NCBI GenBank assembly: GCA_002364615.1
Contig: DEYP01000016.1
Coordinates: 124,001 to 188,000, forward strand
Direction of reading: 5' to 3'
Length of the DNA stretch: 64,000 bases
DNA from: Arsukibacterium sp. UBA3155
GTDB taxonomy: Bacteria > Pseudomonadota > Gammaproteobacteria > Enterobacterales > Alteromonadaceae
Positions within the stretch are counted from its first letter, which is position 1, and each line of letters starts with the position of its first letter. A program made the position numbers and the translations under genes. Below, in pieces: positions 33,491 through 49,096 of this stretch. The notes beneath the pieces were generated by a model. That model saw only the letters and a list, made by a program, of their open reading frames with translations. It had not been told where the DNA came from and made no database searches.

Positions 33491-33714
33491 CTACGTGTAT
33501 TTTTGTCTGCGACACGCCGTGAACCCCTCCCTGGGGGCTCGTTTCCGCCCGTCCAGGGCTTCAACGGTCTCAGAAAAAATCACATCCGCATCAGCTTACT
33601 TCAAAGTAAAGGGAAGCGCGCTGTACACTTTGGCCGGAACCGTGTTTTTCATGGATGAAAAACAGGAGCCCCCATGGATGGGTTTACGGCGTGTTTCGGC
33701 AAAGTTGTACGGAG
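33491..33714. repeat. Palindromic CATGGATG-family element, long copy 1
   Basis: This fills most of the 323-base gap between liuE and scoA. The outer arms GACACGCCGTGAACCCC (33511-33527) and GGGTTTACGGCGTGTTT are inverted copies, extended by a matching inner pair around GGGGGCTCG and GAGCCCCC. Inside is a hairpin GTTTTTCA-tgga-TGAAAAAC (33644-33663). The core CATGGATG occurs at 33650 and 33673. The rest of the gap is unremarkable. Short open frames across it are repeat-encoded and not genes. Confidence 0.85.
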
Positions 33715-33753
33715 TGCTTACCGTGTCCGAAGAACCTTATTTGCTGCTGTTAA

Positions 33754-34668
33754 CTAATCACCAGTTTGCGTGCACTTCGCCTTAAGTGCCAATCCTACTT
33801 TAGAACTAGGTTGCTTCCCAAGCTTGCCAGTAATAAACCAGCCGGCTTCTGCCAGCGCCGCTAAATCAATGCCGTGCTCAATACCCAGGCCATTTAATAA
33901 GTACACCACATCTTCGGTGGCCACATTGCCCGAAGCACCAGCAGCATAAGGGCAGCCGCCTAAACCGGCCACAGCGCTATCAATAATGCTAATGCCACGA
34001 TTAAGCGCCACGTAAATATTAGTCAGGGCCTGGCCGTAGGTGTCATGAAAATGTACAGCTAATTTTTCAGCAGGTACCATCGATAGCACCGCATCCAGCA
34101 TGGCGTTCACTTTTGTCGGGGTGCCAACACCAATAGTATCGCCCAGAGATATCTCATAGCAGCCCATTTCCAGCAGGGCTTTAGCAACCAGGGCAACCTC
34201 GGTCGGTGCCACATCGCCCTGATACGGACAACCGACCACACAAGACACATAACCACGTACTTTAATGCCATCAGCTTTCGCCGCCTCAACGACCGGCGCA
34301 AAGCGCTCCAGGCTTTCACTGATAGAGCAGTTAATGTTTTTCTGGCTAAACGCTTCTGATGCTGCGCCAAAAATAGCGACTTCGGTGGCACCTGCGGCTT
34401 TTGCTGCTTCATAGCCTTTTAAATTAGGGGTCAGCGCCGCATAAGTCACGCCAGCTTTGCGGGTAATACCGGCAAATACCTCTGCAGAGTCGGCCATTTG
34501 CGGTACCCACTTAGGTGAAACAAAAGCGCCACTTTCAATGTAACTGTGCCCAGCGGCGCTTAGCATGTCGATTAAAGCAATCTTATCGGTGCTGCTAACA
34601 CTTTGCTCGTTTTGCAGGCCATCACGCGGGCCTACTTCCACTATACGGACACGTGCTGGTAAGCTCAT
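33754..34668 (-). CDS. liuE: Hydroxymethylglutaryl-CoA lyase
   Basis: A 304-residue HMG-CoA lyase, which splits HMG-CoA into acetoacetate and acetyl-CoA, the last carbon-carbon cleavage of leucine breakdown. [12 protein letters not shown] at the N terminus holds metal-binding Asp and Arg. [14 protein letters not shown] holds metal His residues, and the signature [19 protein letters not shown] carries the catalytic cysteine. The start overlaps the liuD stop by 4 bases. Length is as usual for the family. Confidence 0.95.
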
Positions 34669-36650
34669 GCTTCCTCCGGACTAAAATCGACCAGTTCGGC
34701 ACCATCTTTTACCAGGTCGCCAGCTGCATAAAACACCTCATTTACCACGCCGTCTTTGGGGGCTTTAATGCTGTATTCCATTTTCATCGCTTCCATAATA
34801 ACCAGCGTATCACCGGCTTTTACATTAGCGCCGGCTTTGGTCATTATCGCCACAATAGTACCGTTCATTGGCGCAGTTAAACTGCCGGCATGCTCGCTGC
34901 CATCCAGCTCCGGAGTGACTTCAGTGCGATAAATAAAGTCATATCGATGATGTTTAATAAAGACACTGATGGTGTCCTGATAACGGCTGACCCGCACCTT
35001 GGTTTTATGATCGCCCAAGGTCGCGCTTAACTCATCGCCATTTAGATCCGCCAGACAGCAAATTTGCTGGCCTTGCAGTTCAATTACATAATGCTGTTGT
35101 TGCTCGCGTATCGTCAATTGCTCAGCGTTATCACCGTGCAGTAAATTAAGAATAACGGTCGGTGTTTCATTTAAACGCCAGCCATGGCTGTATTGCCAGG
35201 GACTCGGGCTGGTGTTACTGGGCCGTGGTGCTTTTTGCTGCTCCATAATAAATAGCGCGGCTAGCACGAGTGCCTGATTATTCTCGCTGTTGGCCGGGGC
35301 GAATAAGGTTGCCTGATGCTGGTTGATAAAGTTGGTATCTAACTCGGCTGCTTTAAAGGCCGGGTGCTCTGTTAAGCTGGTTAAAAAGCTTAAATTGGTG
35401 GTCACGCCGGCGATCCGGTAATCGTCCAGCGCACGCAGCATTCTGGCGATAGCGCGGTCACGGCTTTCGTCCCAGACAATAAGCTTGGCAATCATTGGGT
35501 CATAAAAAGGCGATACTTCGTCATTCTCTACTACGCCGGTATCCACCCGCACATTGCGGCTCTGTTCTGGCTGACGTAAATAAGTCAGCTTGCCGGTGGC
35601 AGGCATAAAATCGTTATCCGGATCTTCGGCATAGACCCGCACTTCAATGGCATGGCCATCAATTTGTACTTCGTGCTGACTAAGGGGCAATTTTTCGCCA
35701 GCCGCCACTAACAGCTGCCATTTAACCAAGTCCTGGCCGGTGATCATTTCCGTAACCGGGTGTTCTACCTGCAGTCGGGTGTTCATTTCCATAAAATAGA
35801 ACGAGCCGTCTTCGTCAAATAAGAACTCTACTGTTCCTGCACCACGATAATCTATGGCTTTTGCGGCTTTTACTGCAGCTTCACCCATCGCTTTACGCTG
35901 TTCTGCGCTGAAATTTGGTGCCGGGGCTTCTTCAATGACTTTCTGATGCCGGCGCTGAATAGAGCAATCGCGCTCGGCTAAATACACTGCGTTGCCGTGA
36001 TTATCACAAAACACCTGAATTTCGATATGACGCGGCTTGGTTAAATAGCGCTCAACCAGCATTTTGTCATTACCAAAACCAGCTTTCGCTTCGCGCCGGG
36101 CACTGGCTAAGGCATCGGCAAACTCTTCTTTTGTCCAGACCACCCGCATGCCTTTGCCACCACCACCATAGGCGGCTTTTAACAGCTGCGGATAACCAAT
36201 ATTGGCAGACTCTTTTGCCAGCAGGTCGTCTGATTGATCATCACCATGGTAGCCCGGCACTAACGGCACGCCGGCGTCAGCCATAATTTTTTTGGCGGCG
36301 CTTTTTGAGCCCATGGCGGTAATCGCACCAACTGGTGGGCCGATAAACACCACACCAGCATCCGAACAGGCTTTGGCGAAATCTTCATTTTCCGATAAAA
36401 ACCCATAGCCCGGATGAATGGCCTCAGCACCACTTTGCTTGGCAATGTCGATTATTTTATCGCTACGCAAGTAAGAGTCTTTACTGGGCGCCGGGCCAAG
36501 CAAATAGGCTTCGTCTGCCATGCGGACATGGCGGGCATTGGCATCGGCTTCGGAATATACTGCCACGCAGCGAATGCCCAGCTTATGAGCCGTGTCGATA
36601 ACCCGACAGGCAATTTCGCCACGGTTAGCGATTAATATTTTGCGAAACAT
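34665..36650 (-). CDS. liuD: Methylcrotonyl-CoA carboxylase biotin subunit (alpha)
   Basis: A 661-residue biotin-dependent carboxylase subunit. Order of domains: biotin carboxylase ([16 protein letters not shown] at the start, the [11 protein letters not shown] loop near residue 163, [18 protein letters not shown] near 285), a linker domain, then a biotinyl domain with EAMKMEYS and biotinylated Lys623. With LiuB it carboxylates 3-methylcrotonyl-CoA. Its place between liuC and liuE supports the leucine pathway over acetyl- or propionyl-CoA carboxylase roles. Confidence 0.95.
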
Positions 36651-36652
36651 AG

Positions 36653-37459
36653 TTAATTATCCTGTGGCTTAGGCGGTAACCAGTTAGGGCGGCGCTTTTC
36701 AAGAAACGCACTCAGGCCTTCCTGGCCTTCATCAGATACCCGAATTTCAGCAATTGCCTGAGTAGTATGTGCTACCACATTGTTGCTGATTTTGCGGTTA
36801 TAAATATTGTGGATCAGTGATTTAGCGGCGCTCATGGCGGCCGGGCTGTTTTGTAGCAGCTGCTCTGCTAACGCATCAGCTTTTTGCGGCAGCTCAGCTG
36901 CACTGACGATTTCGTGCAATAACCCCAGAGATCTGGCAGTGTCGGCGGTAAAGCGTTCGGCGGTTAAAAAATAACGCCGGCTTTGCCGCTCGCCCAAGGC
37001 GCGCATCACGTAGGGGCTGATCACGGCCGGGATCAGGCCAATTTTCACTTCACTTAAACAGAAGCTGGCGGTATCGCTGGCAATAGCGATATCGCAACAC
37101 GCTACCAGGCCAACAGCGCCACCAAAAGCGGCACCTTGCACTAAAGCGAGGGTAGGCTTAGGGAACTTGTCCAGCTTATACATGAGGGTTGCCAACTCGT
37201 TGGCGTCGTCCAGATTTTGCGCATAGTCTTTTTCGGCCATCGAGCGCATCCAGTTAATATCGGCGCCGGCAGAGAAGTTTTTGCCGTTCGCACTTAGCAT
37301 AAGCACTTTTACCTGTTCATTGGCTGCGAGGTTGTCCAGCACCTGGATCAGCTCGGCAATCATCAGATCGTCAAAGGCGTTATGCACCTCTGGCCGGTTG
37401 AGTACCAGGTTGGCCACGCCACGCTGGTCGATAGTTACTTGGGTGTAAACCTGGTTCAT
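36653..37459 (-). CDS. liuC: Methylglutaconyl-CoA hydratase (enoyl-CoA hydratase family)
   Basis: A 268-residue crotonase-fold enzyme. The oxyanion-hole segments are NFSAGADINWM and GAAFGGAVGLVACCDIAIAS. The second Glu region reads CLSEVKIGLIPAVISPYVMRALG, typical of 3-methylglutaconyl-CoA hydratases. It hydrates methylglutaconyl-CoA to HMG-CoA. It is 2 bases from liuD, but 412 bases from liuB because a palindromic element separates them. GAGA precedes the ATG. Confidence 0.9.
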   Translation of the reverse strand: MNQVYTQVTIDQRGVANLVLNRPEVHNAFDDLMIAELIQVLDNLAANEQVKVLMLSANGKNFSAGADINWMRSMAEKDYAQNLDDANELATLMYKLDKFPKPTLALVQGAAFGGAVGLVACCDIAIASDTASFCLSEVKIGLIPAVISPYVMRALGERQSRRYFLTAERFTADTARSLGLLHEIVSAAELPQKADALAEQLLQNSPAAMSAAKSLIHNIYNRKISNNVVAHTTQAIAEIRVSDEGQEGLSAFLEKRRPNWLPPKPQDN

Positions 37460-37532
37460 TTTCTCTCCAAAAAGTGTTGCTGCAAGCTAGGATGTTATAA
37501 ACCGGCAATCCTATGTCTTCGACATCGCGGTC

Positions 37533-37830
37533 GCTGCGTGAATTTTTGTCTGCGACACGCCGTGAACCCATCCATGGGGGCTCGATTCGCCCATCCTGGG
37601 CTGCAACGGTCGCCGAAAAAATCACATCCGCACCCGCTTGATCCACTTAGCAGCAAGCGCACAGTGCACTTTGCTCAGAACCGTGTTTTTCATGGATGAA
37701 AAACAGACAAATTCGTCAGGAACGAATTTGAACAGCGTTCTTTGCTGCCCAAGGGGCAAACTTCACGGATGAAGTTTGTAACCCTACATGGATGTATTTA
37801 CGGCGTGTTCTGACAAAGTTGTACGGCGCG
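37533..37830. repeat. Palindromic CATGGATG-family element, long copy 2 with extra hairpins
   Basis: It occupies the 412-base gap between liuB and liuC. Outer arms GCGACACGCCGTGAACCC and TATTTACGGCGTGTT match the other long copies. Compared with copies 1 and 4 it carries additional stem-loops between the shared GTTTTTCATGGATGAAAAAC hairpin (37685-37704) and the right arm. These are CAAATTCGT/ACGAATTTG (about 37708-37730), a small TGCCC/GGGCA, and CAAACTTCA-cgga-TGAAGTTTG (about 37758-37779). The CATGGATG core, either strand, is at 37569, 37691 and 37787. Confidence 0.85.
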
Positions 37831-37871
37831 ATTGCTGCGTCTTTGCCCGAAGCGACTGACCGATAGCCACA

Positions 37872-39479
37872 TCACATTCTAAATACACCAAACTTTGTCT
37901 CTTCAATTGGCGCATTCAGTGCTGCGGCCAACGCCAGACCGACAGTCATCCGGGTTTGTGCCGGGTCAATAATGCCGTCATCCCACAAACGCCCGCTGGC
38001 GTAATAAGGGTGACCCTGCTTTTCATACTGCTCAATAATCGGTTTTTTCAGTGCTTTTTCGGCATCTGCTGACAAGGTTTCGCCTTTACGGGCTAAGCCG
38101 TCTTTGGTTACCTGCGCCATAACGCCTGCTGCCTGCTCGCCACCCATTACTGATATGCGCGCGTTAGGCCACATCCACATCATGGTTGGGTCATAGGCAC
38201 GGCCACACATACCGTAGTTGCCGGCGCCATAGCTGCCACCAATTAACACGGTAAACTTCGGTACCTTGGCACAGCTTACCGCCATCACCATTTTGGCACC
38301 GTGCTTGGCAATACCTTCAGCTTCATATTTTTTGCCGACCATAAAGCCGGTAATATTCTGCAGGAATAACAACGGAATTTTGCGCTGAGCACACAATTCA
38401 ATAAAGTGCGCGCCTTTTTGTGCAGACTCTGAGAAAAGTATCCCGTTATTGGCGATAATGCCTACCGGATAGCCGAAGATGCGTGCAAAACCGCACACCA
38501 GGGTCGCACCGTACAGCTGTTTAAACTCATCAAAATCAGAGTTATCGACAAGGCGGGCAATCACTTCTTTGACATCAAAAGGTTTGCGTAAATCGGTACC
38601 GACAATGCCGTATAACTCTTTGGCATCGTATAAAGGCTCTTGCGGCGCTTTAACATCCAGTTGCTCTGGTGCCTGGCGGTTTAAGCGCGATACGGCATTA
38701 CGCGCCAGTTGCAGCGCATGCTCGTCATTGAGTGCATAGTGATCCGCCACACCGGAGATTTTACAGTGCACATCGGCACCGCCAAGCTCTTCTGCGGAGA
38801 CTTCTTCACCGGTGGCGGCTTTAACCAACGGTGGGCCGGCTAAGAAAATAGTGCCTTGCTCTTTAACAATAATGCTCTCATCTGCCATGGCCGGCACATA
38901 AGCACCGCCGGCGGTACACAGGCCCATTACTACAGCAATTTGCGGAATACCTTTGGCAGACATATTGGCCTGATTAAAGAAAATTCGGCCAAAGTGCAAT
39001 TTATCCGGGAACACATCGTCTTGCCGCGGCAAGTTAGCCCCGCCAGAATCGACCAGATAAATACAAGGCAGGTGACAGCGCTCGGCGATTTCCTGCGCTC
39101 GCAGGTGTTTTTTTACGGTAAGCGGATAGTAGGTGCCGCCTTTAACGGTGGCATCGTTAGCGACAATCATGCACTCAACACCACTGACCCGGCCAACACC
39201 GGCGACCACGCCTGCGCAGGGCACATAATCTTCATAGCATTCCCAGCCGGCAAATTGGCCCACTTCTAAAAAGGGCGAACCCGGGTCAAGCAGCTTTTGA
39301 ATACGCTCACGCACAAACAACTTACCGCGGGCGGTATGACGGGCAATTAATGCTTCGCCGCCACCGAGCTTAATTTGCTGCACCTTAGCGTTCAGATCGT
39401 CGACCACGGCCTGCATGGCATCCGCGTTTTTCAGAAACTCGTCGCTACGGGGGTTAATTTTACTTACGATCTTGGTCAT
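37872..39479 (-). CDS. liuB: Methylcrotonyl-CoA carboxylase carboxyltransferase subunit (beta)
   Basis: A 535-residue carboxyltransferase subunit of about the usual MCC beta length. Features include [23 protein letters not shown], the oxyanion segment [17 protein letters not shown], and in the C-terminal half [17 protein letters not shown] and [11 protein letters not shown], typical of methylcrotonyl rather than propionyl enzymes. It is 1 base after liuA. It transfers the carboxyl group from LiuD-bound biotin to 3-methylcrotonyl-CoA. Confidence 0.95.
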
Positions 39480-39480
39480 A

Positions 39481-40650
39481 TCAGTTCGACTCTGTAAATA
39501 ACTCGCGGCCGATTAACATGCGGCGGATTTCAGAGGTGCCCGCACCAATTTCATACAGTTTGGCATCGCGCAGTAAGCGGCCGGTAGGGTACTCATTAAT
39601 GTAGCCATTACCGCCTAATAACTGAATGGCATCCAGTGCCATTTTGGTGGCTAGCTCAGCGGAATATAAAATAACCGCTGCGGCGTCTTTACGGGTGGTT
39701 TCGCCACGGTCACAGGCTTTCGCTACTGTGTAAACATAGGATTTGGCGGCATTCATCTGAGTGTACATATCGGCCAGTTTGCCCTGGACCAGCTGGAATT
39801 CACCAATGGCCTGGCCAAACTGTTTACGGTCGTGAATATAAGGTACTACCACGTCCATACAGGCCTGCATAATGCCCAGCGGGCCGGCTGCCAATACCAC
39901 GCGCTCGTAGTCCAGGCCGCTCATTAATACTTTAACGCCACCGCCAATCTGGCCAAGGATATTTTCGGCCGGTACTTCGCAATCTTCAAATACCAGCTCA
40001 CAGGTATTAGAGCCTCGCATGCCAAGCTTATCCAGCTTCTGAGCAGTGCTAAAACCTTTAGTGCCGCGTTCAACAATAAAAGCGGTAATGCCTTTGCTGC
40101 CGGCATTAATATCGGTTTTGGCATAAATAACATAGGTGTGTGCATCCGGGCCGTTGGTGATCCACATTTTATTGCCATTTAAAATGTACATATCGCCTTT
40201 TTTCTCGGCGCGCAATTTCATACTCACCACGTCAGAGCCGGCATTGGGCTCACTCATTGCCAGCGCACCAATATGCTCGCCAGAGCAAAGTTTTGGCAGG
40301 TACTTCATTTTTTGCGCTTCAGTACCGTTTCGGAAAATCTGGTTAACACACAGATTAGAGTGGGCACCGTATGACAGGCCAACAGAAGCGGAAGCACGAC
40401 TGATTTCTTCCAGTGCCACCACATGTTCTAAATAGCCGAGGCCTGAGCCGCCGTATTTTTCATCAACGGTAATGCCGAGCAGACCTAAGTCACCAAATTT
40501 GCGCCATAATTCATTTGGGAATTCGTTTACCTGATCAATGTGTTCAGCCCGTGGGGCTATTTCTTCGCGCGAGAAAGCATTAACCTGCTCGCGGATCATA
40601 TCGACGGTTTCGCCTAAATCGAAGTTAAGGCCTTTGTAACTGCTTATCAT
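39481..40650 (-). CDS. liuA: Isovaleryl-CoA dehydrogenase
   Basis: A 389-residue acyl-CoA dehydrogenase. The catalytic base is at the isovaleryl-CoA position: Glu249 in [15 protein letters not shown]. The usual C-terminal Glu site reads [19 protein letters not shown] with Gly in its place. This combination is diagnostic of isovaleryl-CoA dehydrogenases. It oxidises isovaleryl-CoA to 3-methylcrotonyl-CoA with FAD, passing electrons to ETF. It is the first catabolic gene after liuR, 34 bases away; GGGGAT precedes the ATG. Confidence 0.95.
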
Positions 40651-40684
40651 GGTAAATCCCCGTTTGCTAAATGCTGAAAACCGC

Positions 40685-41089
40685 CTAAGCGGTTTTGGAT
40701 TGTTTGGCGTCTGCTAAGGTGTCGAGGCAACGTTTTTCAACGGTAACCAGTTCCATTAGCACTACTTTAATGTCGTCCAGTTGCTGATGCAGTTCGCTTT
40801 TCTTCTGCTCGATTAGTCTCAGCATGGTATTTAATTGGGTAACACTGCTTTTATCAGCGTCGTACAGTTCAAACAGTTGACCGGTTTCTGCCAGACTAAA
40901 GCCCAGCCGTTTTCCGCGCAAAATCAACTTCAGGCGAACCCGATCACGTTTGCTGTAAATGCGGGTCTGGCCGTTTCGCAGGGGCGTAAGCAGCCGCTGA
41001 TCTTCGTAAAACCGAATGCTGCGGGTAGTAATGTCGAACTCTTTTGCCAGCTCGCTGATACTGTAGGTTTTTTCTTCTTTTTCTGTCAT
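40685..41089 (-). CDS. liuR: MerR-family regulator LiuR
   Basis: A 134-residue MerR-type regulator. The winged-helix N terminus [28 protein letters not shown] is followed by a coiled-coil dimerisation helix (about residues 80-120). There is no metal-binding cysteine cluster, as expected for LiuR, which responds to pathway CoA intermediates. It is the first gene of the operon it is expected to control and is divergent from the thiolase gene, with operator-like sites between them. Confidence 0.92.
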
Positions 41090-41127
41090 AACCGCCTTCC
41101 CAAAAACGCCATCAACTATAAGTGAAG

Positions 41128-41144
41128 TTTACGTAAAGGTAAAG
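41128..41144. promoter_or_regulatory. Putative LiuR operator, liuR side
   Basis: TTTACGTAAAGGTAAAG lies 39 bases upstream of the liuR ATG. It shares the block CGTAAA-s-GTAAA with a second site near the thiolase gene. The half-site spacing and ACGT core look like LiuR operators described for Shewanella-type bacteria, as I recall them. Autoregulation is likely. Confidence 0.6.
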
Positions 41145-41289
41145 CTAGTGGCTGGGGGTTAAAATCAATAGAAGAGCGTTTTGGCAGGCTTTGTAAAGCA
41201 AAAATGCCAGATTTTTCTGCTCAGACTGTACAGTTTACTGCACCATTTTCCGAACTATAAACAGTAGTCACTACCATAGTGTTAGATAG

Positions 41290-41312
41290 TTGACGTTGGC
41301 GTAAACGTAAAT
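41290..41312. promoter_or_regulatory. Putative LiuR operator, thiolase side
   Basis: TTGACGTTGGCGTAAACGTA, with AAT following, contains the paired ACGT/CGTAAACGT blocks and ends 52 bases before the thiolase ATG. It matches the first site in the CGTAAA-s-GTAAA block. Its place between the divergent arms fits joint control of leucine and valine/isoleucine catabolism. Confidence 0.65.
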
Positions 41313-41364
41313 TTGGTGTAGGCTCTTGGGCATCTTTTCAGGCCAACCTTGATAGGAGAGTAAA

Positions 41365-42558
41365 ATGGATTCTGACAATACCGGACACAATATTGTAATT
41401 GTTGCAGCAAAACGCACCGCGATGGGCGGCTTTATGGGCGGTTTAACCGAAGTTGACGCCACTGTGCTGGGTGCTACTGCGATTAAAGCGGCGCTAGAGC
41501 AAGCCGGTGTTAGCGGCGATAAGGTTAGTGAAGTGATAATGGGTAATGTGCTGCCTGCCGGTATAGGTCAGGCCCCGGCGCGCCAGGCTACTTTAAAAGC
41601 TGGATTGCCCCTAAGTGCTGGGGCAACCACCATTAATAAGGTGTGTGGTTCGGGCTTAAAAGCGGTAATGCTTGCCAGTGATTTACTGAAAGCCGGCAGT
41701 GCTGATCTGGTGGTTGCCGGTGGTATGGAGTCAATGAGCAACGCACCGTACTTGTTGCCAAAAGCGCGGGCAGGCTATCGGATGGGTCATGGTGAGATTA
41801 AAGACCACATGATGTTAGACGGTCTGGAGAACGCTTACGATGGCAAAGCCATGGGCTGTTTTGCTCAGGGTACCGCCGATGAAAAAGGCATTACCCGCGA
41901 GCAGATGGATGCTTTCGCGGTGCAGTCAACTACCCGCGCTCAGCAAGCCATAAGCAGTGGTGCTTTTGAGTCAGAAATTGCCCCGGTAAGCTTTCAAACC
42001 CGCAAAGGCGAAGTAACCTTCAAGGTAGATGAGCAGCCAGGCAATGCCAAACTGGATAAAATCCCAAGCTTACGGCCGGCCTTTGCTAAAGACGGCACCA
42101 TTACCGCGGCCAACTCCAGCTCTATTTCAGATGGTGCAGCAGCCCTGATATTAATGCGCGAGTCAGATGCCAAAGCTCAGGGCTTAACACCACTTGCAAA
42201 AGTGGTAGCCCACAGCACCAACTCAATGGAGCCGGCATTGTTTACTGTGGCCCCGGTTGGCGCTATGCAAAAAGTACTGCAAAAAGCCGGCTGGGATAAA
42301 GAGCAGGTCGATCTTTGGGAAATTAACGAAGCCTTTGCCATGGTCACCATGCTGGCGATAAATGAATTGGGTCTTGATGCAGCCAAAGTTAACGTAAACG
42401 GCGGTGCCTGTGCCTTAGGTCACCCGATAGGTGCTTCAGGCGCCCGTATTCTGGTGACCCTGATTCATGCCCTGCGAAACCGTGGCCTGAGCAAAGGCGT
42501 TGCCTCGCTGTGTATAGGTGGCGGTGAAGCCGTTGCCTTGGCAGTTGAAGTTCTGTAA
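41365..42558 (+). CDS. Acetyl-CoA C-acyltransferase (thiolase)
   Basis: A 397-residue thiolase. The acylated cysteine is Cys94 in TTINKVCGSGLKA; the other catalytic residues are in NEAFAMV, the GGACALGHPIGASGAR histidine, and the CIGGGEA cysteine near residue 383. It may cleave acetoacetyl-CoA from leucine and 2-methylacetoacetyl-CoA from isoleucine. Its position as first gene of the plus arm fits the ivdA or atoB role in related bacteria. AGGAGAG precedes the ATG. Confidence 0.93.
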   Translation: MDSDNTGHNIVIVAAKRTAMGGFMGGLTEVDATVLGATAIKAALEQAGVSGDKVSEVIMGNVLPAGIGQAPARQATLKAGLPLSAGATTINKVCGSGLKAVMLASDLLKAGSADLVVAGGMESMSNAPYLLPKARAGYRMGHGEIKDHMMLDGLENAYDGKAMGCFAQGTADEKGITREQMDAFAVQSTTRAQQAISSGAFESEIAPVSFQTRKGEVTFKVDEQPGNAKLDKIPSLRPAFAKDGTITAANSSSISDGAAALILMRESDAKAQGLTPLAKVVAHSTNSMEPALFTVAPVGAMQKVLQKAGWDKEQVDLWEINEAFAMVTMLAINELGLDAAKVNVNGGACALGHPIGASGARILVTLIHALRNRGLSKGVASLCIGGGEAVALAVEVL

Positions 42559-42585
42559 CTGCGTTAAAAACAAGAACAAGTGTGA

Positions 42586-42672
42586 GGTTGGAATCCCGTT
42601 AGCGCAGCCACAGAGTGTCTGAGTGAGCGAAAGCAAGCGAGTTGCTGTGGCGAGCACAACGGGAGTTGCAAC
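42586..42672. repeat. 87-nt symmetric hairpin downstream of the thiolase gene
   Basis: Three paired blocks are arranged symmetrically: GGTTG/CAACC, CCCGTT/AACGGG and GCCACAG/CTGTGGC, separated by internal loops of nearly equal size (4 and 6 bases). The apical loop is a 31-base G/A-rich segment with GAGCGAAAGCAAGCGAG. It has no T-run and no CATGGATG core, so it is a different element from the repeats nearby. Confidence 0.75.
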
Positions 42673-42781
42673 CGGTAACGTTGCACTGAATGAACAAGCT
42701 TTAAATTACAGTGTGCCAGCTTATTTTAATAATTAAATCTATTTGCGCTGGCAACACCCCCTAACAACCGGGAGAAGCAAT

Positions 42782-44278
42782 ATGACACAACAGGTTAAAC
42801 ATTTTATCGACGGCGAGTTCGTCAGCTCAAACAGCGACAAACTGATCCCCGTCACCAACCCGGCTACCCAGGAAGTGATTGCCCAGGTTCCTTGCGCTAC
42901 CCAGGAAGAAATGACCCGGGCAGTAGAGTCGGCCAAAGCCGCTTTTTTAACCTGGAAAGAAGTTCCGGTATCAGAGCGCGCCCGTTTAATGATGCGTTTT
43001 GCTCACTTATTAAAAGAACACCAGGGCGAAATTGCGGAGATTATCTGTCAGGAACTGGGTAAAACCGTTGAAGACGCTAAAGGCGATGTCTGGCGTGGTA
43101 TCGAAGTTGTTGAGCAGGCGGCCAATATTCCGTCATTAATGATGGGCGAAACGGTAGAGAACGTAGCGCGCAGCATTGATACCTACAGCTACATTCAGCC
43201 GTTGGGTGTCTGTGCCGGCATTACCCCGTTTAACTTCCCGGCGATGATCCCATTGTGGATGTTCCCGATGGCCATTGCCTGCGGCAATACCTTTATCTTA
43301 AAACCGTCTGAGCAAGACCCGATGACGGTTAACAAAATTGCCGAGTTATTTGTTAAAGCCGGCGCGCCAAAAGGCGTGTTGCAAGTAGTGCATGGCGCCA
43401 AAGAGCAGGTAGATGCCATATTGCATCACCCGGATATTAAGGCGATTTCATTTGTTGGCTCGGTCAATGTGGGCCAGTACATCTACAAAACCGGTACCGA
43501 CAACCTAAAACGCGTACAGGCCTTCGCCGGTGCCAAAAACCATATGGTTATTATGCCTGATGCCAATAAACAACAGGTGGTTAACGCTCTGGTGGGTGCT
43601 TCAGTCGGCGCTGCCGGTCAGCGCTGTATGGCAATTTCTGTTGCAGTGTTTGTGGGTGCCGCTGCAGAGTGGATCCCGGAAGTGGCAGCCGCCATTGGTA
43701 AAGTACGCCCGGGCGTTTATACCGACCCGAATGCTGCTTATGGCCCGCAAATTAGCCCGCAAGCCCGTGCCCGTGTACTGTCACTGATTGAGCAGGGTAA
43801 AAAAGAAGGCGCAACCTGTGTGCTGGATGGCTCGGACTGCAAAGTTGAAGGCTATCCGGACGGTAACTGGGTAGGCCCAACGGTATTTAGTAATGTTAAA
43901 ACCGATATGGAAATCTATAAGCAAGAAATCTTTGGCCCGGTATTAACCACTATGCATGTTGATTCACTGGCTGAAGCATTAAAAGTGGTTAACGACAGCC
44001 CCTACGGGAACGGTACCTCTATATTTACTGCCAGTGGTGCGGCTGCCCGTAAGTATCAACATGAAGTGGAAGTGGGTCAGGTAGGTATCAACATTCCTAT
44101 TCCAGTACCACTGCCGTTTTTCTCGTTTACTGGCTGGAAAGGTTCGTTCTATGGCGACCAGCATGCCTATGGTAAACAGGCAGTACGTTTCTATACTGAG
44201 ACCAAAACCATTACTGCCCGCTGGTTTGATGACGATATTCCGGTATCTGGCCCGAATATGTCGATTAACTTGCGTTAA
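42782..44278 (+). CDS. mmsA: CoA-acylating methylmalonate-semialdehyde dehydrogenase
   Basis: A 498-residue aldehyde dehydrogenase of the MMSDH group, which turns methylmalonate semialdehyde into propionyl-CoA in valine breakdown. The NAD site segment is [21 protein letters not shown] and the catalytic cysteine lies in [14 protein letters not shown]. The C-terminal [22 protein letters not shown] is specific to the group. ATG 42782 is preferred over an upstream frame opening because GGGAGAAG lies 6 bases before it. Confidence 0.95.
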
Positions 44279-44302
44279 GCGCGGGGCTTAGAATAACAAG
44301 GC

Positions 44303-44402
44303 GGGTGGGAGACTTTACTTAGCCGACCGTTGTAGGCCATGGATGGCCGGAAACGAGTCCCAGGGAAGTTTATAGCGTGTCGGCTTGTAAAGTGTGCCAC
44401 CC
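44303..44402. repeat. CATGGATG-family element, short copy, inverted orientation
   Basis: It sits between mmsA and the acyl-CoA dehydrogenase. Its interior is the reverse complement of the left arm of the long copies: GGCCATGGATGGCC at 44335-44348, then CCCAGGGAAG and TATAGCGTGTCGGC. Nested outer stems are GGGTGG/CCACCC, ACTTTAC/GTAAAGT and GCCGAC/GTCGGC. The first two stems have no sequence match to those of the other short copy, although both pair. Confidence 0.82.
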
Positions 44403-44471
44403 AGCCCATCATAAGTTTTAACTACATTTAGTAGCAGGGTGTCAAACACCAGAACCTGTAAAGGTGTATCA

Positions 44472-45629
44472 ATGAATTTCAATTTAACAGAAGACCAACA
44501 AGCCTTTGTCGATGTGGCCAAACAGTTTGCCGAACAGGAACTGGCGCCACATGCCGCGCAGTGGGATCGCGATCACCACTTCCCGAAAGACGTCATTCAA
44601 AAAGCCGGTGAGCTGGGTTTTTGCTCGCTGTATACCGCTGAAGATGACGGTGGTATGGGCTTATCACGCTTAGACTCATCTATTATTTTCGAGCAACTGG
44701 CCATGGGCTGTACTGCCACCACGGCCATGTTAACCATTCATAATATGGCCACCTGGATGATTGCCACCTGGGGTACCAGTGATGCGAAAGCCGAATGGGT
44801 AGAGCATTTGGTCACCGGCCAGAAACTGGCGTCGTACTGCTTAACTGAGCCGGGCTCAGGCTCGGACGCTGCCGGCCTTCGAACCAGTGCCAAAAAAGAC
44901 GGCAGTGACTACATTCTAAACGGCTCGAAGATGTTTATCTCTGGTGCCGGTTCTACCGAAGTACTGGTAGTCATGGCCCGTACCGGTGAAGCTGGTCCTA
45001 AGGGCATTTCTGCCTTTATCGTGCCAGCCGATGCTAAAGGCGTTATATACGGCAAAGCGGAAGAGAAAATGGGCTGGAATGCTCAGCCAACCCGCCTTAT
45101 TACTTTTGAAGATGTTCGTGTTCCTGCCCATTACTTATTGGGTAACGAAGGTGAAGGTTTTGGCTTTGCCATGAAAGGCCTGGACGGCGGTCGGATTAAT
45201 ATTGCTACCTGTTCAATTGGTACCGCCCAGCAGGCACTAAATACTGCCCGCAATTATATGCTGGAGCGGCAGCAGTTTGGTAAGCCACTGGCGGCGTTTC
45301 AGGCGCTGCAGTTTAAACTTGCTGATATGGCAACTGAGTTAGTTGCTGCCAGGCAGTTAGTGCGCTTAGCCGCCTTTAAACTGGACCAGAAAGACGGTGA
45401 AGCGACTGCTTACTGCGCGATGGCCAAACGTTTCGCGACTGATGTCGGCTTTCAGGTGTGCGACCAGGCACTGCAGCTGCATGGTGGTTATGGCTACATT
45501 AAGGAATATCCGCTGGAGCGGCATTTCCGTGATGTGCGGGTGCATCAGATTTTGGAAGGCACCAACGAGATTATGCGGCTGATTATCGGCCGGCGGTTAC
45601 TGGATGAAGCTGCTGGCGATATTCTGTAA
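44472..45629 (+). CDS. Acyl-CoA dehydrogenase (isobutyryl/2-methylbutyryl-CoA type)
   Basis: A 385-residue acyl-CoA dehydrogenase. The catalytic base is at the standard C-terminal position, Glu362 in HQILEGTNEIMR, unlike LiuA. FAD-site segments SYCLTEPGSGSDAAGLRT and QLHGGYGYIKEYPLERHFRD are intact. Its place between mmsA and the hydratase points to isobutyryl-CoA, and perhaps 2-methylbutyryl-CoA, as substrates. ATG 44472 follows AAAGGTG; an upstream in-frame opening at 44439 is not supported. Confidence 0.92.
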   Translation: MNFNLTEDQQAFVDVAKQFAEQELAPHAAQWDRDHHFPKDVIQKAGELGFCSLYTAEDDGGMGLSRLDSSIIFEQLAMGCTATTAMLTIHNMATWMIATWGTSDAKAEWVEHLVTGQKLASYCLTEPGSGSDAAGLRTSAKKDGSDYILNGSKMFISGAGSTEVLVVMARTGEAGPKGISAFIVPADAKGVIYGKAEEKMGWNAQPTRLITFEDVRVPAHYLLGNEGEGFGFAMKGLDGGRINIATCSIGTAQQALNTARNYMLERQQFGKPLAAFQALQFKLADMATELVAARQLVRLAAFKLDQKDGEATAYCAMAKRFATDVGFQVCDQALQLHGGYGYIKEYPLERHFRDVRVHQILEGTNEIMRLIIGRRLLDEAAGDIL

Positions 45630-45665
45630 CTTAATCAACGGATAATGTTCGTGGTTTAGCGAAAA

Positions 45666-45771
45666 GGTGAACCAGGTTTGTTCACGCCGACACGCCGTAA
45701 ACCCCTCCCTGGGGGCTCGTTTCCGCCCGTCCAGGGCTTCAACGGTCGGCTTAGAACAAACCTTATTCACC
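45666..45771. repeat. CATGGATG-family element, short copy, direct orientation
   Basis: It lies between the acyl-CoA dehydrogenase and the enoyl-CoA hydratase. The interior CACGCCGTAAACCCCTCCCT and GGGGGCTCGTTTCCGCCCGT match long copy 1 almost exactly, though this copy has CGTCCAGGG instead of the CATGGATG core. Nested outer stems are GGTGAA/TTCACC, AGGTTTGTTC/GAACAAACCT and GCCGAC/GTCGGC. An in-frame extension of the hydratase reading frame runs through it, but it is not coding. Confidence 0.85.
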
Positions 45772-45810
45772 TCATTCAACTTCCGAGTATTGCCAACAAA
45801 GGAGACATTA

Positions 45811-46584
45811 ATGGCTCAACTAAAACTGGAAAAGCGCGGTCACACAGCGCTTATCACCATGGCAAACCCGCCAGCCAACACCTGGACCCACGCCAGCTTA
45901 ACCGAGCTGCGCGATACGGTTCAAAGCCTTAGCAACGATAAAAATATTTATGCGTTAGTCATCACCGGCGAAGGCGAAAAATTCTTCTCGGCCGGTGCAG
46001 ATTTAAAAGTGTTTGCCGATGGTGACAAAGGTGTTGCCAGCGATATGGCGCGGATTTTTGGCGAAGCATTTGAAACCCTGAGTGCGTTTCGCGGTGTGTC
46101 TATTGCAGCGATTAATGGTTATGCCATGGGCGGCGGTTTAGAAGTCGCATTAGCGTGTGATATCCGCATTGCCGAGCAACAAGCACAGATGGCTTTGCCT
46201 GAAGCGAAAGTAGGTTTATTACCCTGTGCCGGTGGCACGCAGAATCTGGCGTGGCTGGTCGGTGAAGGCTGGGCAAAACGGATGATTTTATGTGGCGAGC
46301 GGCTTAGTGCCGAAAAAGCACTGCAAATTGGTCTGGTAGAAGAAGTGGTACCTACCGGTAGCGTATTAGAAGCCGCGTTGGCGCTGGCCGATAAAGTTGC
46401 CGGGCAAAGTCCGGTAGCGGTAGCCGCGTGTAAGAAACTGATCCAACAAGGTCGCAGTGGCAGCATCAATGCCGCATTACCGTTAGAGCGCGAGTTATTT
46501 GTTGGGTTGTTTGATAGTAAAGATCAGGTCGAAGGGGTGCAGGCCTTTTTAGAGAAGCGTCAGGCTAAGTGGATTAACGGGTGA
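45811..46584 (+). CDS. Enoyl-CoA hydratase (methacrylyl/tiglyl-CoA)
   Basis: A 257-residue crotonase-family hydratase. The oxyanion segments are FFSAGADLKVF and GYAMGGGLEVALACDIRIAE; the catalytic Glu regions are the latter and ALPEAKVGLLPCAGGTQNL. It probably hydrates methacrylyl-CoA (valine) and tiglyl-CoA (isoleucine). The frame is open upstream to 45667 through a palindromic repeat, but ATG 45811 with AAAGGAG 7 bases before it is the clear start and matches family length. Confidence 0.9.
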   Translation: MAQLKLEKRGHTALITMANPPANTWTHASLTELRDTVQSLSNDKNIYALVITGEGEKFFSAGADLKVFADGDKGVASDMARIFGEAFETLSAFRGVSIAAINGYAMGGGLEVALACDIRIAEQQAQMALPEAKVGLLPCAGGTQNLAWLVGEGWAKRMILCGERLSAEKALQIGLVEEVVPTGSVLEAALALADKVAGQSPVAVAACKKLIQQGRSGSINAALPLERELFVGLFDSKDQVEGVQAFLEKRQAKWING

Positions 46585-46589
46585 GCAAT

Positions 46590-47726
46590 ATGAGTACAGA
46601 CGTAGTGTTATATCAGGAACTGACGGCTGACAATGGTAAAAAAATTGCGGTTGCCACTCTTAATTCAGAGAAGTCATTAAATGCGCTGAGTTTACCGATG
46701 GTGGAGTCGTTACTGCCAAAACTACAGGCTTGGAAAAACGACCCGGCTATTGCCATGGTGCTATTGCAAGGCGCTGGCGATAAAGCATTTTGTGCCGGTG
46801 GTGATATACGTGACTTATATCAGGCAATGAAAGAAAGCCCGGATTACTATCACCCCTATGTTGAAGAGTTTTTTACCAAAGAATATACCCTGGATTACCT
46901 GATCCATACCTTCGATAAACCTTTGCTGGTATGGGGCAACGGTATTGTAATGGGTGGCGGTTTAGGCCTGATGGCGGGCGCGTCACACCGTGTGGTTACC
47001 GCAACCAGCCGGATCGCGATGCCGGAAATGGCGATTGGTTTATACCCGGATGTTGGCGCTAGTTGGTTTTTAAACCGAATGCCGCCGGGCTGTGGTATTT
47101 TCTTAGGGTTAACCGGCGCTTCTATCAATGCAGCTGATGCCAAATTTATTCATTTAGCGGATCATTTTATCGAACACGAAAGCAAAGCCGCCTTGGTTGA
47201 TAAACTAATGACGGTGAAGTGGGGCGAAACCATTGCCCTTAATCATCAGAAATTATCCGATGTGTTACGAAGTGCAGAAGAGCAGTGCCGTACCAAAATG
47301 CCGCTAAGCCAGATCCGGCCGCATCAGAGTGCTATCACTGCCCTTAACGACATCAGCAGCCTGCCGCAGGTTATTAGTGCTATCAACGCAATCGAAGGCG
47401 ATGACAAATGGCTGATTAAAGCCAAACAGTCGCTTGCCTACGGCAGCCCGATTACTGCGCATATTGTGTTTAAGCTGTTGCAACTGGGCCAGAGCAAAAT
47501 ACTGGCTGACAGCTTCCGGCTGGAGCTGGGTATTAGTGTCCAGTGTGGACAGCTGGGCGAGTTTCAGGAAGGCGTGCGGGCACTGCTGATTGATAAAGAC
47601 TTAAAACCAGACTGGAAATATAAGCAGGTGGATGAAGTACCTGCAGATGTTATTGAGCTGCTGTTCAGTTCACCATGGCAGGATAACGAGCATCCATTAA
47701 AAGATCTGGGCTTGTTAGATAGTTAA
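46590..47726 (+). CDS. 3-hydroxyisobutyryl-CoA hydrolase
   Basis: About 378 residues of the crotonase superfamily, longer than hydratases, as usual for HIBCH. Key segments are NSEKSLNALSLPMVESL, KAFCAGGDIRDLYQ, WGNGIVMGGGLGLMAGASHRVVT and MPEMAIGLYPDVGASWFLNRMP, the last with the acidic catalytic residues of hydrolases. It releases free 3-hydroxyisobutyrate for MmsB. A GTG at 46581 overlaps the hydratase stop; ATG 46590 has GGTGAG at better spacing, and both are possible. Confidence 0.92.
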   Translation: MSTDVVLYQELTADNGKKIAVATLNSEKSLNALSLPMVESLLPKLQAWKNDPAIAMVLLQGAGDKAFCAGGDIRDLYQAMKESPDYYHPYVEEFFTKEYTLDYLIHTFDKPLLVWGNGIVMGGGLGLMAGASHRVVTATSRIAMPEMAIGLYPDVGASWFLNRMPPGCGIFLGLTGASINAADAKFIHLADHFIEHESKAALVDKLMTVKWGETIALNHQKLSDVLRSAEEQCRTKMPLSQIRPHQSAITALNDISSLPQVISAINAIEGDDKWLIKAKQSLAYGSPITAHIVFKLLQLGQSKILADSFRLELGISVQCGQLGEFQEGVRALLIDKDLKPDWKYKQVDEVPADVIELLFSSPWQDNEHPLKDLGLLDS

Positions 47727-47755
47727 TTTACCAGGACAACTGCAAGGAATTTATT

Positions 47756-48646
47756 ATGGCTAAAGTTGCGTTTATCGGTTTAGGAAACATGGGTGGCCCA
47801 ATGGCTACTAACTTATTAAAAGCCGGCCACGATGTTATCGCCTTTGATTTATCAAAAGATGCGCTGGCACAGATAGCAGCAGAAGGCGCTAAGGTAGCGA
47901 GCTCTGCCAGAGAGGCGGTAGGTCACACTGATTATGTTATTTCTATGCTGCCGGCAGGCAAGCATGTGATTGACCTGTATCTGGGCGAGCAGGGCATTGC
48001 CAGTGCGATCAGCAAGCAGGCGTTGGTCATTGACTGCTCTACCATTGATGCTGAAAGTGCCCGCACGGTAGGTACTGGCCTTGCTCAGCAGGGTATCGCT
48101 TTTATCGATGCACCGGTATCTGGTGGGGTAGGCGGTGCTAAAGCTGGCACTTTGACCTTTATTGTTGGCGGTGCAGCGCAGGATTTTGAAAATGCCCACA
48201 CTGTGCTGAGCAATATGGGTAAAAACCTGTTTCATGCCGGAGCCATTGGCGCAGGGCAGGTCGCAAAAATCTGTAACAATATGCTGTTAAGTATTTTAAT
48301 GGCAGGTACCTCTGAAGCGCTGCAAATGGGCATCAATAATGGGCTGGATCCGAAAGTGTTATCAGACATTATGCTGAAAAGCTCAGGTCGCAACTGGACG
48401 CTGGAGCTGTATAACCCTTGCCCGGGTGTGATGGACAATGTGCCGGCTTCGAATAACTATCAGGGCGGCTTTATGGTTGATTTAATGGCCAAAGATTTAG
48501 GGCTGGCGCTGGAGTCTGCTAAGCAAAGTGGCAGCAACACGCCTTTGGGTGAACTGGCGCATAAATTATATGTACAGCACCAGCAGGACGGTAATGGCAA
48601 ACTGGATTTCTCCAGCATTTTTAAGATGTTGGCTAAAGACGCCTAA
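47756..48646 (+). CDS. mmsB: 3-hydroxyisobutyrate dehydrogenase
   Basis: A 296-residue NAD-dependent dehydrogenase. The cofactor site is FIGLGNMGGPMATNLLKAGH, followed by Asp in AFDLSK, which favours NAD. The substrate signature is DAPVSGGVGGAKAGTL, and the catalytic Lys is in GAGQVAKICNNM. It oxidises 3-hydroxyisobutyrate to methylmalonate semialdehyde, the MmsA substrate, so the valine branch is complete in this operon. CAAGGAA precedes the ATG. Confidence 0.95.
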   Translation: MAKVAFIGLGNMGGPMATNLLKAGHDVIAFDLSKDALAQIAAEGAKVASSAREAVGHTDYVISMLPAGKHVIDLYLGEQGIASAISKQALVIDCSTIDAESARTVGTGLAQQGIAFIDAPVSGGVGGAKAGTLTFIVGGAAQDFENAHTVLSNMGKNLFHAGAIGAGQVAKICNNMLLSILMAGTSEALQMGINNGLDPKVLSDIMLKSSGRNWTLELYNPCPGVMDNVPASNNYQGGFMVDLMAKDLGLALESAKQSGSNTPLGELAHKLYVQHQQDGNGKLDFSSIFKMLAKDA

Positions 48647-48713
48647 GTCTTAATAGATATGCAAGTACTCCGAATGTTTTGGTTAAGTATTTGTTCAGGT
48701 AGTAGGTAATCGC

Positions 48714-48966
48714 TGCTACTGCGTACATTTTTGTCTGTGACACGCCATAAACCGTCCCTGGGGCTCGGTTCCGGCCATCCATGGCCTACAACGGTCTCAG
48801 AAAAAAGTACATCCGTATCCGCTGCTTCGGTGTTCTTTGCGATCTCGATGTTACACTCGAGACAGACGCGGATGTACTTTTTGGCGGACCGTGTTTTTCA
48901 TGGATGAAAAACAGGAGTCTACAGGGAAGTATTTACGACGTGTCCGACGAAAAATGTACGCAGCGG
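48714..48966. repeat. Palindromic CATGGATG-family element, long copy 3, best-preserved fold
   Basis: It dominates the 450-base gap between mmsB and the SDR gene. The outer arms CTGCGTACATTTTTGTC and GACGAAAAATGTACGCAG are near-perfect inverses, continuing into GACACGCC/ACGTGTC. Inside lie three side arms: GGCCAT-cc-ATGGCC (48773-48786); a long arm with AAAAAGTACATCCG paired to GCGGATGTACTTTTT, capped by TCTCGA/TCGAGA; and GTTTTTCA-tgga-TGAAAAAC (48893-48912). Drawn out, it is a cloverleaf. The rest of the gap (48647-48713, 48967-49096) shows nothing else apart from the SDR ribosome-binding site. Confidence 0.88.
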
Positions 48967-49096
48967 CTGGCGGGTTGCCAGGTCACTGCCAAATTAGAAT
49001 TAAGCAATAACAAAGCTTTTAGCTTTGTTTCTAAGAGAAAATAAGCTTACGCGCAGATTAAATGTACATAGTAATCGCGCCTACGGAGAAAGTGGT

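Follow-up and report, generated by a model that had tools for sequence, protein, structure and literature searches.

YPAL-like palindromic repeats in the gaps of a branched-chain catabolism cluster of Arsukibacterium and across Gammaproteobacteria

Why should a single gene cluster hold large palindromes in five of the gaps between its genes? The question is raised by a stretch of 64,000 nucleotides (nt) of the Arsukibacterium sp. UBA3155 genome (GenBank assembly GCA_002364615.1, contig DEYP01000016.1, positions 124,001 to 188,000 of the forward strand), called the window below. It includes a liu/mms cluster for branched-chain catabolism in two divergent arms. The minus-strand arm has scoA, liuE, liuC, liuB, liuA and a MerR regulator gene, and the other arm has a thiolase gene, mmsA, an acyl-CoA dehydrogenase gene (acd), two enoyl-CoA hydratase/hydrolase genes, mmsB and an SDR gene (sdr) on the plus strand. 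A first-pass annotation of the window described five palindromic elements in this cluster. They are built from one unit whose core is that of the Yersinia repeat YPAL/RU-2. We consider it probable that they belong to a class-wide, YPAL-like, non-autonomous palindromic repeat, kept as an intercistronic or 3′-untranslated-region hairpin that would protect or process the messenger RNA (mRNA) upstream of it.

All five elements proved real, and each lies within a transcription unit, between co-directional genes of one of the two arms, 25 to 68 nt past the upstream gene's stop codon. Their common building block is a unit of ~75 nt that consists of a palindromic stem and a three-way-junction cap with a nearly invariant core, ACGCCGTRAA-hairpin-GGCTC-hairpin-ACG. 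From the outside inward, the unit comprises a variable stem ending in GAC...GTC, unpaired ACGCCGTRAA, hairpin 1, GGCTC, then hairpin 2, in place of which several hairpins can stand in a row, and finally ACG. The hairpin loops read TCC on the cap strand and GGA on the opposite strand, and hairpin 2 can house a cassette of further hairpins.

Elements 1, 2 and 5 are inverted pairs of facing units. Element 1 (33491..33714) lies between scoA and liuE, both on the minus strand. Its unit U1 is on the plus strand (cap and inner stem at 33505..33577, C30:157505-157577 in contig coordinates; 92.2 bits with model R1), and its inverted unit U2, with TTTTTCATGGATGAAAAA as hairpin 2, is on the minus strand (33630..33701, C30:157630-157701; R1, 51.2 bits). 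Element 2 (37533..37830), between liuC and liuB on the minus strand, combines U1 on the plus strand (37548..37619; R1, 84.4 bits) with an inverted U2 on the minus strand that bears an extra hairpin cassette made of AAATTCGTCAGGAACGAATTT and AAACTTCACGGATGAAGTTT (37670..37818; model R2, 32.1 bits). Element 5 (48714..48966), between mmsB and sdr on the plus strand, has U1 at 48733..48804 on the plus strand (R1, 68.2 bits) and an inverted U2 at 48879..48950 on the minus strand (R1, 38.6 bits; R2, 63.1 bits). The other two elements are single units between plus-strand genes. Element 3 (44303..44402, minus strand; R1, 64.2 bits at 44317-44387) separates mmsA from acd, and element 4 (45666..45771, plus strand; R1, 99.7 bits at 45683-45755) separates acd from an enoyl-CoA hydratase gene (ech).

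The folding energy of each element was compared with that of dinucleotide shuffles, none of which folded as well as the real sequence in any of the five cases. The z score was -6.65 for element 1, folded at 33491-33714; elements 2 to 5 were folded with flank and gave -6.15 (37520-37850), -7.06 (44290-44410), -5.72 (45655-45785) and -8.23 (48690-48980), respectively. These analyses bear out the first-pass description of a single modular palindromic family, with a CATGGATG core in four of the five elements. They also agree with its statement that the other ~48 kb of the window hold no copy, as R2 detected eight units in the window, every one inside the five elements. The inverted arms that it attributed to all five are present in the three composites (33491, 37533 and 48714), where they are two facing copies of one unit, and not in the single units at 44303 and 45666.

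YPAL is a Yersinia repeat reported by De Gregorio et al. in 2006. Later reviews state that it was first reported as ~168 bp long, that its targets are sites of dyad symmetry and that it is cotranscribed with upstream genes (PMC2759123, PMC2229807). The class core, ACGCCGTRAAYNCNTCCNTGNRGGCTCG, occurs exactly once in the 168-nt RU-2/YPAL sequence printed in Table 1b of Delihas 2007 (PMC2759123), with which the window units align. The likeness to dispersed hairpin repeats of gammaproteobacteria that had been noted at first pass is thus exact at the level of the core. RU-2 is 98.2% identical over 167 nt to a Yersinia similis locus (L144) and 85.6% identical to a Yersinia proxima locus (L093). Both families are intergenic, dispersed, multicopy hairpins. 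However, the window units lack the outer ends of RU-2 and its full 168-nt length, and they have two other arm types, facing pairs and the extra hairpin cassette. Because the core is shared but the outer arms are of other sequence, we class the window family as YPAL-like and not as YPAL. Our search found no literature linking YPAL to other genera, subscription papers being beyond its scope.

The Rfam model of the small RNA (sRNA) Ysr224, RF02770, which was built from Yersinia, matched the YPAL element itself, in cap orientation, at both the Y. similis and the Y. proxima loci, and gave no match to the window copies even at E ≤ 1. Judged by these sequence matches, Ysr224 is the same element as the YPAL/RU-2 repeat, and an Rfam "sRNA" is thereby identified as a dispersed repeat. 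A review counts Ysr224 as one of the most prevalent sRNAs and calls it temperature-responsive (PMC9029176); its nature as a repeat would explain this. An Rfam search of the window, which was the sole test of a sequence relation to BOX, ERIC and NEMIS/Correia, returned no match. Like the window family, these are modular or folded intergenic repeats transcribed with their neighbors (for ERIC and NEMIS/Correia, PMC2229807).

The repeat is not confined to branched-chain catabolism operons, as had been proposed. Blastn and R1 located 19 loci in the source genome, of which the window accounts for five and the rest of the genome for 14. R1 detected 18 of them at E ≤ 2e-5, and C14:76270 was added by blastn; a weak match at C4:31252 (E = 0.11) was left out of the count. 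The genes upstream of the outside copies, named from our interpretation of Pfam matches, include those for a fumarylacetoacetate hydrolase, a NUDIX protein, a prolyl oligopeptidase, an antiporter, an LD-carboxypeptidase, an alpha/beta hydrolase and a ComM-like protein, as well as hisF (before hisIE), psd, zapD, bamE, gltD and ilvD (before ilvA). Thirteen of the 14 outside copies are at most 98 nt from the stop codon of a gene pointing toward the copy, the exception being C25:205536, ahead of an acetolactate-synthase-like gene. Over all 19 copies, 18 have a stop codon no more than 100 nt away and 17 no more than 70 nt away, and the neighbors are co-directional in 15 cases, convergent in four and divergent in none. 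Flanking genes of the outside copies and of the class sets described below were called with custom open reading frame scripts rather than a gene finder, and some of these flanks will be wrong.

Scanning named genomes with the core pattern yielded at least 119 stretches. Those listed include stretches from Stenotrophomonas, Xanthomonas, Yersinia, Sodalis, Rheinheimera, Idiomarina, Alteromonas, Shewanella, Marinobacter, Haliea, Halopseudomonas, Methylomonas, Methylotuvimicrobium and Microbulbifer. A first alignment, A1, had comprised 13 units, with the U2 units and loci L014, L023 and L024 excluded. The scan gave at least 131 pattern matches in at least 119 loci, of which 126 had enough flank, 105 passed a pairing filter and 76 remained after thinning; 72 of these and three window units form the 75-copy alignment A2, from which R2 was built. 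R2 found matches in 49 of 274 class genomes sampled, the source genome included, and in 44 of 222 genera, a patchy distribution. Four other genomes gave 107, 128, 124 and 70 matches. These copy numbers are lower bounds, as 17 candidates per genome were scored in the 274-genome survey and 150 per genome in the source genome and the four-genome counts. For comparison, most Yersinia carry 37 to 144 YPAL copies according to PMC2847712. A single 58-nt core query had no match in E. coli or phages; we do not claim absence from E. coli, given the three YPAL matches there in a table of PMC2847712. Three plasmid records matched this query, one from Marinobacter at 4e-6 and two at 0.1. Repeats that seemed unrelated genus by genus are thus joined into one family with a defined cap, and our models find it.

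The unpaired nucleotides of the cap are conserved throughout the class. In A2, 91.6% of stem cells are paired, against 61.4% in shuffled alignments and 31-48% when slid, a score that is partly due to selection since entry into A2 required a paired stem. Departures from the commonest pair in the outer helix affect both sides in 313 cells and a single side in five, so that the stems of the copies differ as whole Watson-Crick pairs, with almost no G-U. Such a pattern would fit arms being kept identical at the DNA level, perhaps by template switching in the palindrome. In 20 regions of Stenotrophomonas maltophilia D457, we found nine facing pairs, all in plus-then-minus order, and eleven single units. 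At the Stenotrophomonas loci L240-L264, the interval between facing units also contains other hairpins, including GTAGATCCACGCCATGCGTGGAT. As this hairpin resembles a GTAG-type REP, repeat families nest within one another there.

Position relative to genes was analyzed in two independent class-wide sets. Among the 126 named-set copies, 106 had both flanks called, giving 123 3′ flanks and 89 5′ flanks, and a second set of 46 copies gave 47 and 45. The 3′ flanks were nearer than the 5′ flanks in both, with medians of 69 versus 141 nt in the named set and 55 versus 118 nt in the second. When pooled, the excess of 3′ over 5′ flanks was slight (170:134, P = 0.045), and convergent neighbor pairs outnumbered divergent ones (41:23, P = 0.033). 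The cap strand was the coding strand of co-directional neighbors in a ratio of 37:18 in the named set and 24:9 in the independent set (pooled P = 3.7e-4); for convergent neighbors of the named set, the ratio was 19:15.

R1 matches were present in all 31 genomes of the genus that were searched, with 11-55 matches each, and in eight of 29 other genomes searched beside them. The liu/mms clusters of 30 relatives contain 169 R1 matches, all in the same five gaps as in the window, and 108 of 143 gap instances are filled: 21 of 29 for scoA|liuE, 23 of 30 for liuC|liuB, 18 of 30 for mmsA|acd, 19 of 24 for acd|ech and 27 of 30 for mmsB|sdr. In the eight other liu/mms gaps, R1 found none of 232 instances filled, 80 of which are at least 80 nt long. 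In 16 of the 35 unfilled cases the gap is under 80 nt long (14-69 nt), as if the entire element were absent. The fill counts are lower bounds, since R1 misses cassette-bearing units; thus, a 277-nt liuC|liuB gap (L229) was scored empty yet contains a core. An operon found in 31 species, whose equivalent gaps are filled in some and empty in others, amounts to a natural experiment on the effects of hairpins on operon mRNA.

The elements also changed in place. The acd|ech unit points in opposite directions in the window and in L213, with similar arms, and the order of the scoA|liuE facing pair is reversed in L209, L211, L212, L218 and L223 relative to the window. In L230, the acd|ech unit has kept its arms and lost most of its cap. 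Some relatives carry the cassette and others do not, L209 contrasting with both L211 and L212, and L217 with L216. Because the same gaps are filled in relatives, with flips and cap loss, the insertions are old and stay in place while being altered by flips and deletions. The hairpin cassette in hairpin 2 (37670-37818 in the window; L209, L216-L218, L221) is gained or lost between close species, as if it were itself moving, and also occurs at loci L091 and L128 of named Rheinheimera.

Even so, the repeat is enriched in this cluster. In simulations, the probability that any 15.5-kb stretch holds five of 19 randomly placed loci was 1.5e-5. However, control sites after hisF, psd and ilvD, which like the liu gaps were picked as filled in the source genome, hold a copy in 16, 19 and 17 of 30 loci each (source genome included), about as often as the liu sites, and special retention in liu is therefore unsupported. 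The liu cluster is unusual for its five elements together, and its single gaps are not unusual.

The favored reading, that of a mobile repeat kept as a hairpin behind genes, builds on the core held in common with YPAL/RU-2, the dispersed multicopy spread, the position 3′ of stop codons in the source genome, the paired stems, and copies that have long stayed in the same gaps while flipping, gaining or losing the cassette, and undergoing deletion. The family is probably mobile, and its units would be spread by a system acting in trans, through an enzyme that we infer, with the cap as the putative recognition signal. Once inserted 3′ of a gene, a unit would be cotranscribed, and its hairpin might block 3′-5′ exonucleases or offer a processing site, making the upstream cistron more stable relative to the downstream one; in this way, the repeats may influence the lifetime of the upstream message. 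Operons such as liu/mms, whose several cistrons are loosely packed and co-regulated, would tolerate and keep several units.

Several observations weigh against this reading. Single units in the liu gaps of the genus have no strand preference, with 26 in the same and 29 in the opposite direction, which weakens a strand-specific RNA role there. The 20 S. maltophilia D457 regions show no visible 3′ proximity, with median distances of 211.5 nt to 3′ ends and 167 nt to 5′ ends, and filling at the three control sites nearly matches that at the liu sites. PMC2229807 reports target duplications of 3-26 bp, dyad-symmetry targets, and filled and empty sites for YPAL, whereas comparison of filled with short gaps in the genus, where flanks are strongly diverged and short gaps may be deletions, revealed neither a target-site duplication nor a clean insertion. 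Likewise, one Stenotrophomonas locus followed across 30 loci offered no readable empty site (three gave an empty extract and two a single anchor), deletion and absence being indistinguishable. No mobilizer was found. Finally, a purely parasitic origin is still a serious rival in view of the flips in place and of the stem pairing pattern at the DNA level.

According to that rival, which we regard as possible if somewhat doubtful, the palindromes are selfish or inert, their location after stop codons results solely from insertion doing little damage there, and persistence results from slow loss and repeated local copying. The random orientation in the genus, the flips, the losses to 14-69-nt gaps in 16 of 143 instances and the similar filling of unrelated sites are what it would lead one to expect. 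It accounts less well for the strand bias toward the coding strand in two independent class-wide sets, for the conservation of unpaired cap nucleotides across the class and for the retention of the same five gaps in 30 relatives. A bolder version of the favored reading seems to us unlikely to hold in full: one conserved cap module, with ~10 invariant unpaired nt on a freely changing perfect stem, would have spread through Gammaproteobacteria as a strand-aware 3′-end element. The module would be moved by an enzyme that reads the folded cap, would favor the coding strand immediately beyond stop codons and would be a portable mRNA-stability device in many hosts, and YPAL and Ysr224 would be local names for it.

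That the elements are intrinsic terminators of the operon or, as raised at first pass, attenuators found little support and is improbable. They are indeed very stable hairpins between cistrons, and a pattern scan gave weak terminator-like hits on the transcribed strand within element 2 (37730-37708) and element 5 (48820-48832). The scan counted 30 such patterns in the region where shuffles gave 18.8 (sd 5.0). However, no T-run follows any of the five elements directly (no TTTT within 14 nt), TTTT occurs within 8 nt of just three of 96 class stems of at least 15 bp, and essential cistrons lie downstream of each element.

We also judged it very unlikely that these are REP/REPIN-type repeats mobilized by a domesticated Y1 (RAYT) transposase. 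Both kinds are dispersed palindromes after stop codons, often as facing inverted pairs (PMC3733652), and Y1 genes are present in 24 of 31 genomes searched, with two in the source genome. Nevertheless, the window units are longer than those of REP, BIME or REPIN, have a three-way-junction cap, and lack the GTAG/CGTC-tagged 20-40-nt REP form. No unit lies within 5 kb of either source-genome Y1 gene (L297, L298) or in eight further Y1 loci with 1.5-kb flanks, the nearest elsewhere being at 1.3 kb (L300). Genus genomes without Y1, G007 and G012, have 44 and 23 units, and Y1 and unit counts are uncorrelated (rho -0.03, 19 genomes). The link was rejected, as no Y1 transposase gene is beside the repeats.

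CsrB-type RNAs are arrays of hairpins with GGA in their loops. Every hairpin loop of the repeat reads NGGA on the reverse strand, and the copies could on that account be decoys for CsrA/RsmA, a notion we find hardly credible. In the stems of 98 named-set copies, C.A exceeded G.U mismatches 45:6 on the cap strand, favoring G.U on the GGA strand. The asymmetry was weaker in further sets (17:9, P = 0.17; 9:4; 9:5; pooled 35:18, P = 0.027), and we make no claim from it as to which strand folds. Moreover, co-directional copies place the cap strand rather than the GGA strand in the message more often (61:27), and the genus shows no preference. Compared with the favored reading, chance arrays are a poorer fit, as are RAYT-linked REPs, CsrA decoys and simple terminators.

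Two further arrangements were seen in the genus. The ilvD locus of one genome (L390, G019) carries a tandem array of six R1 matches ~118 nt apart in one orientation. A second palindromic family, AACACGCnnnCCCG...CTCCC...TTTTGATCGTCTGCTTAGTT, occupies neighboring gaps, namely liuB|liuA of L214, L215, L217 and L222, and also the mmsA|acd gap of L221, L215, L223, L224 and L229. Its outer CACGC...CTTAG signature also marks the single-unit type in the main family.

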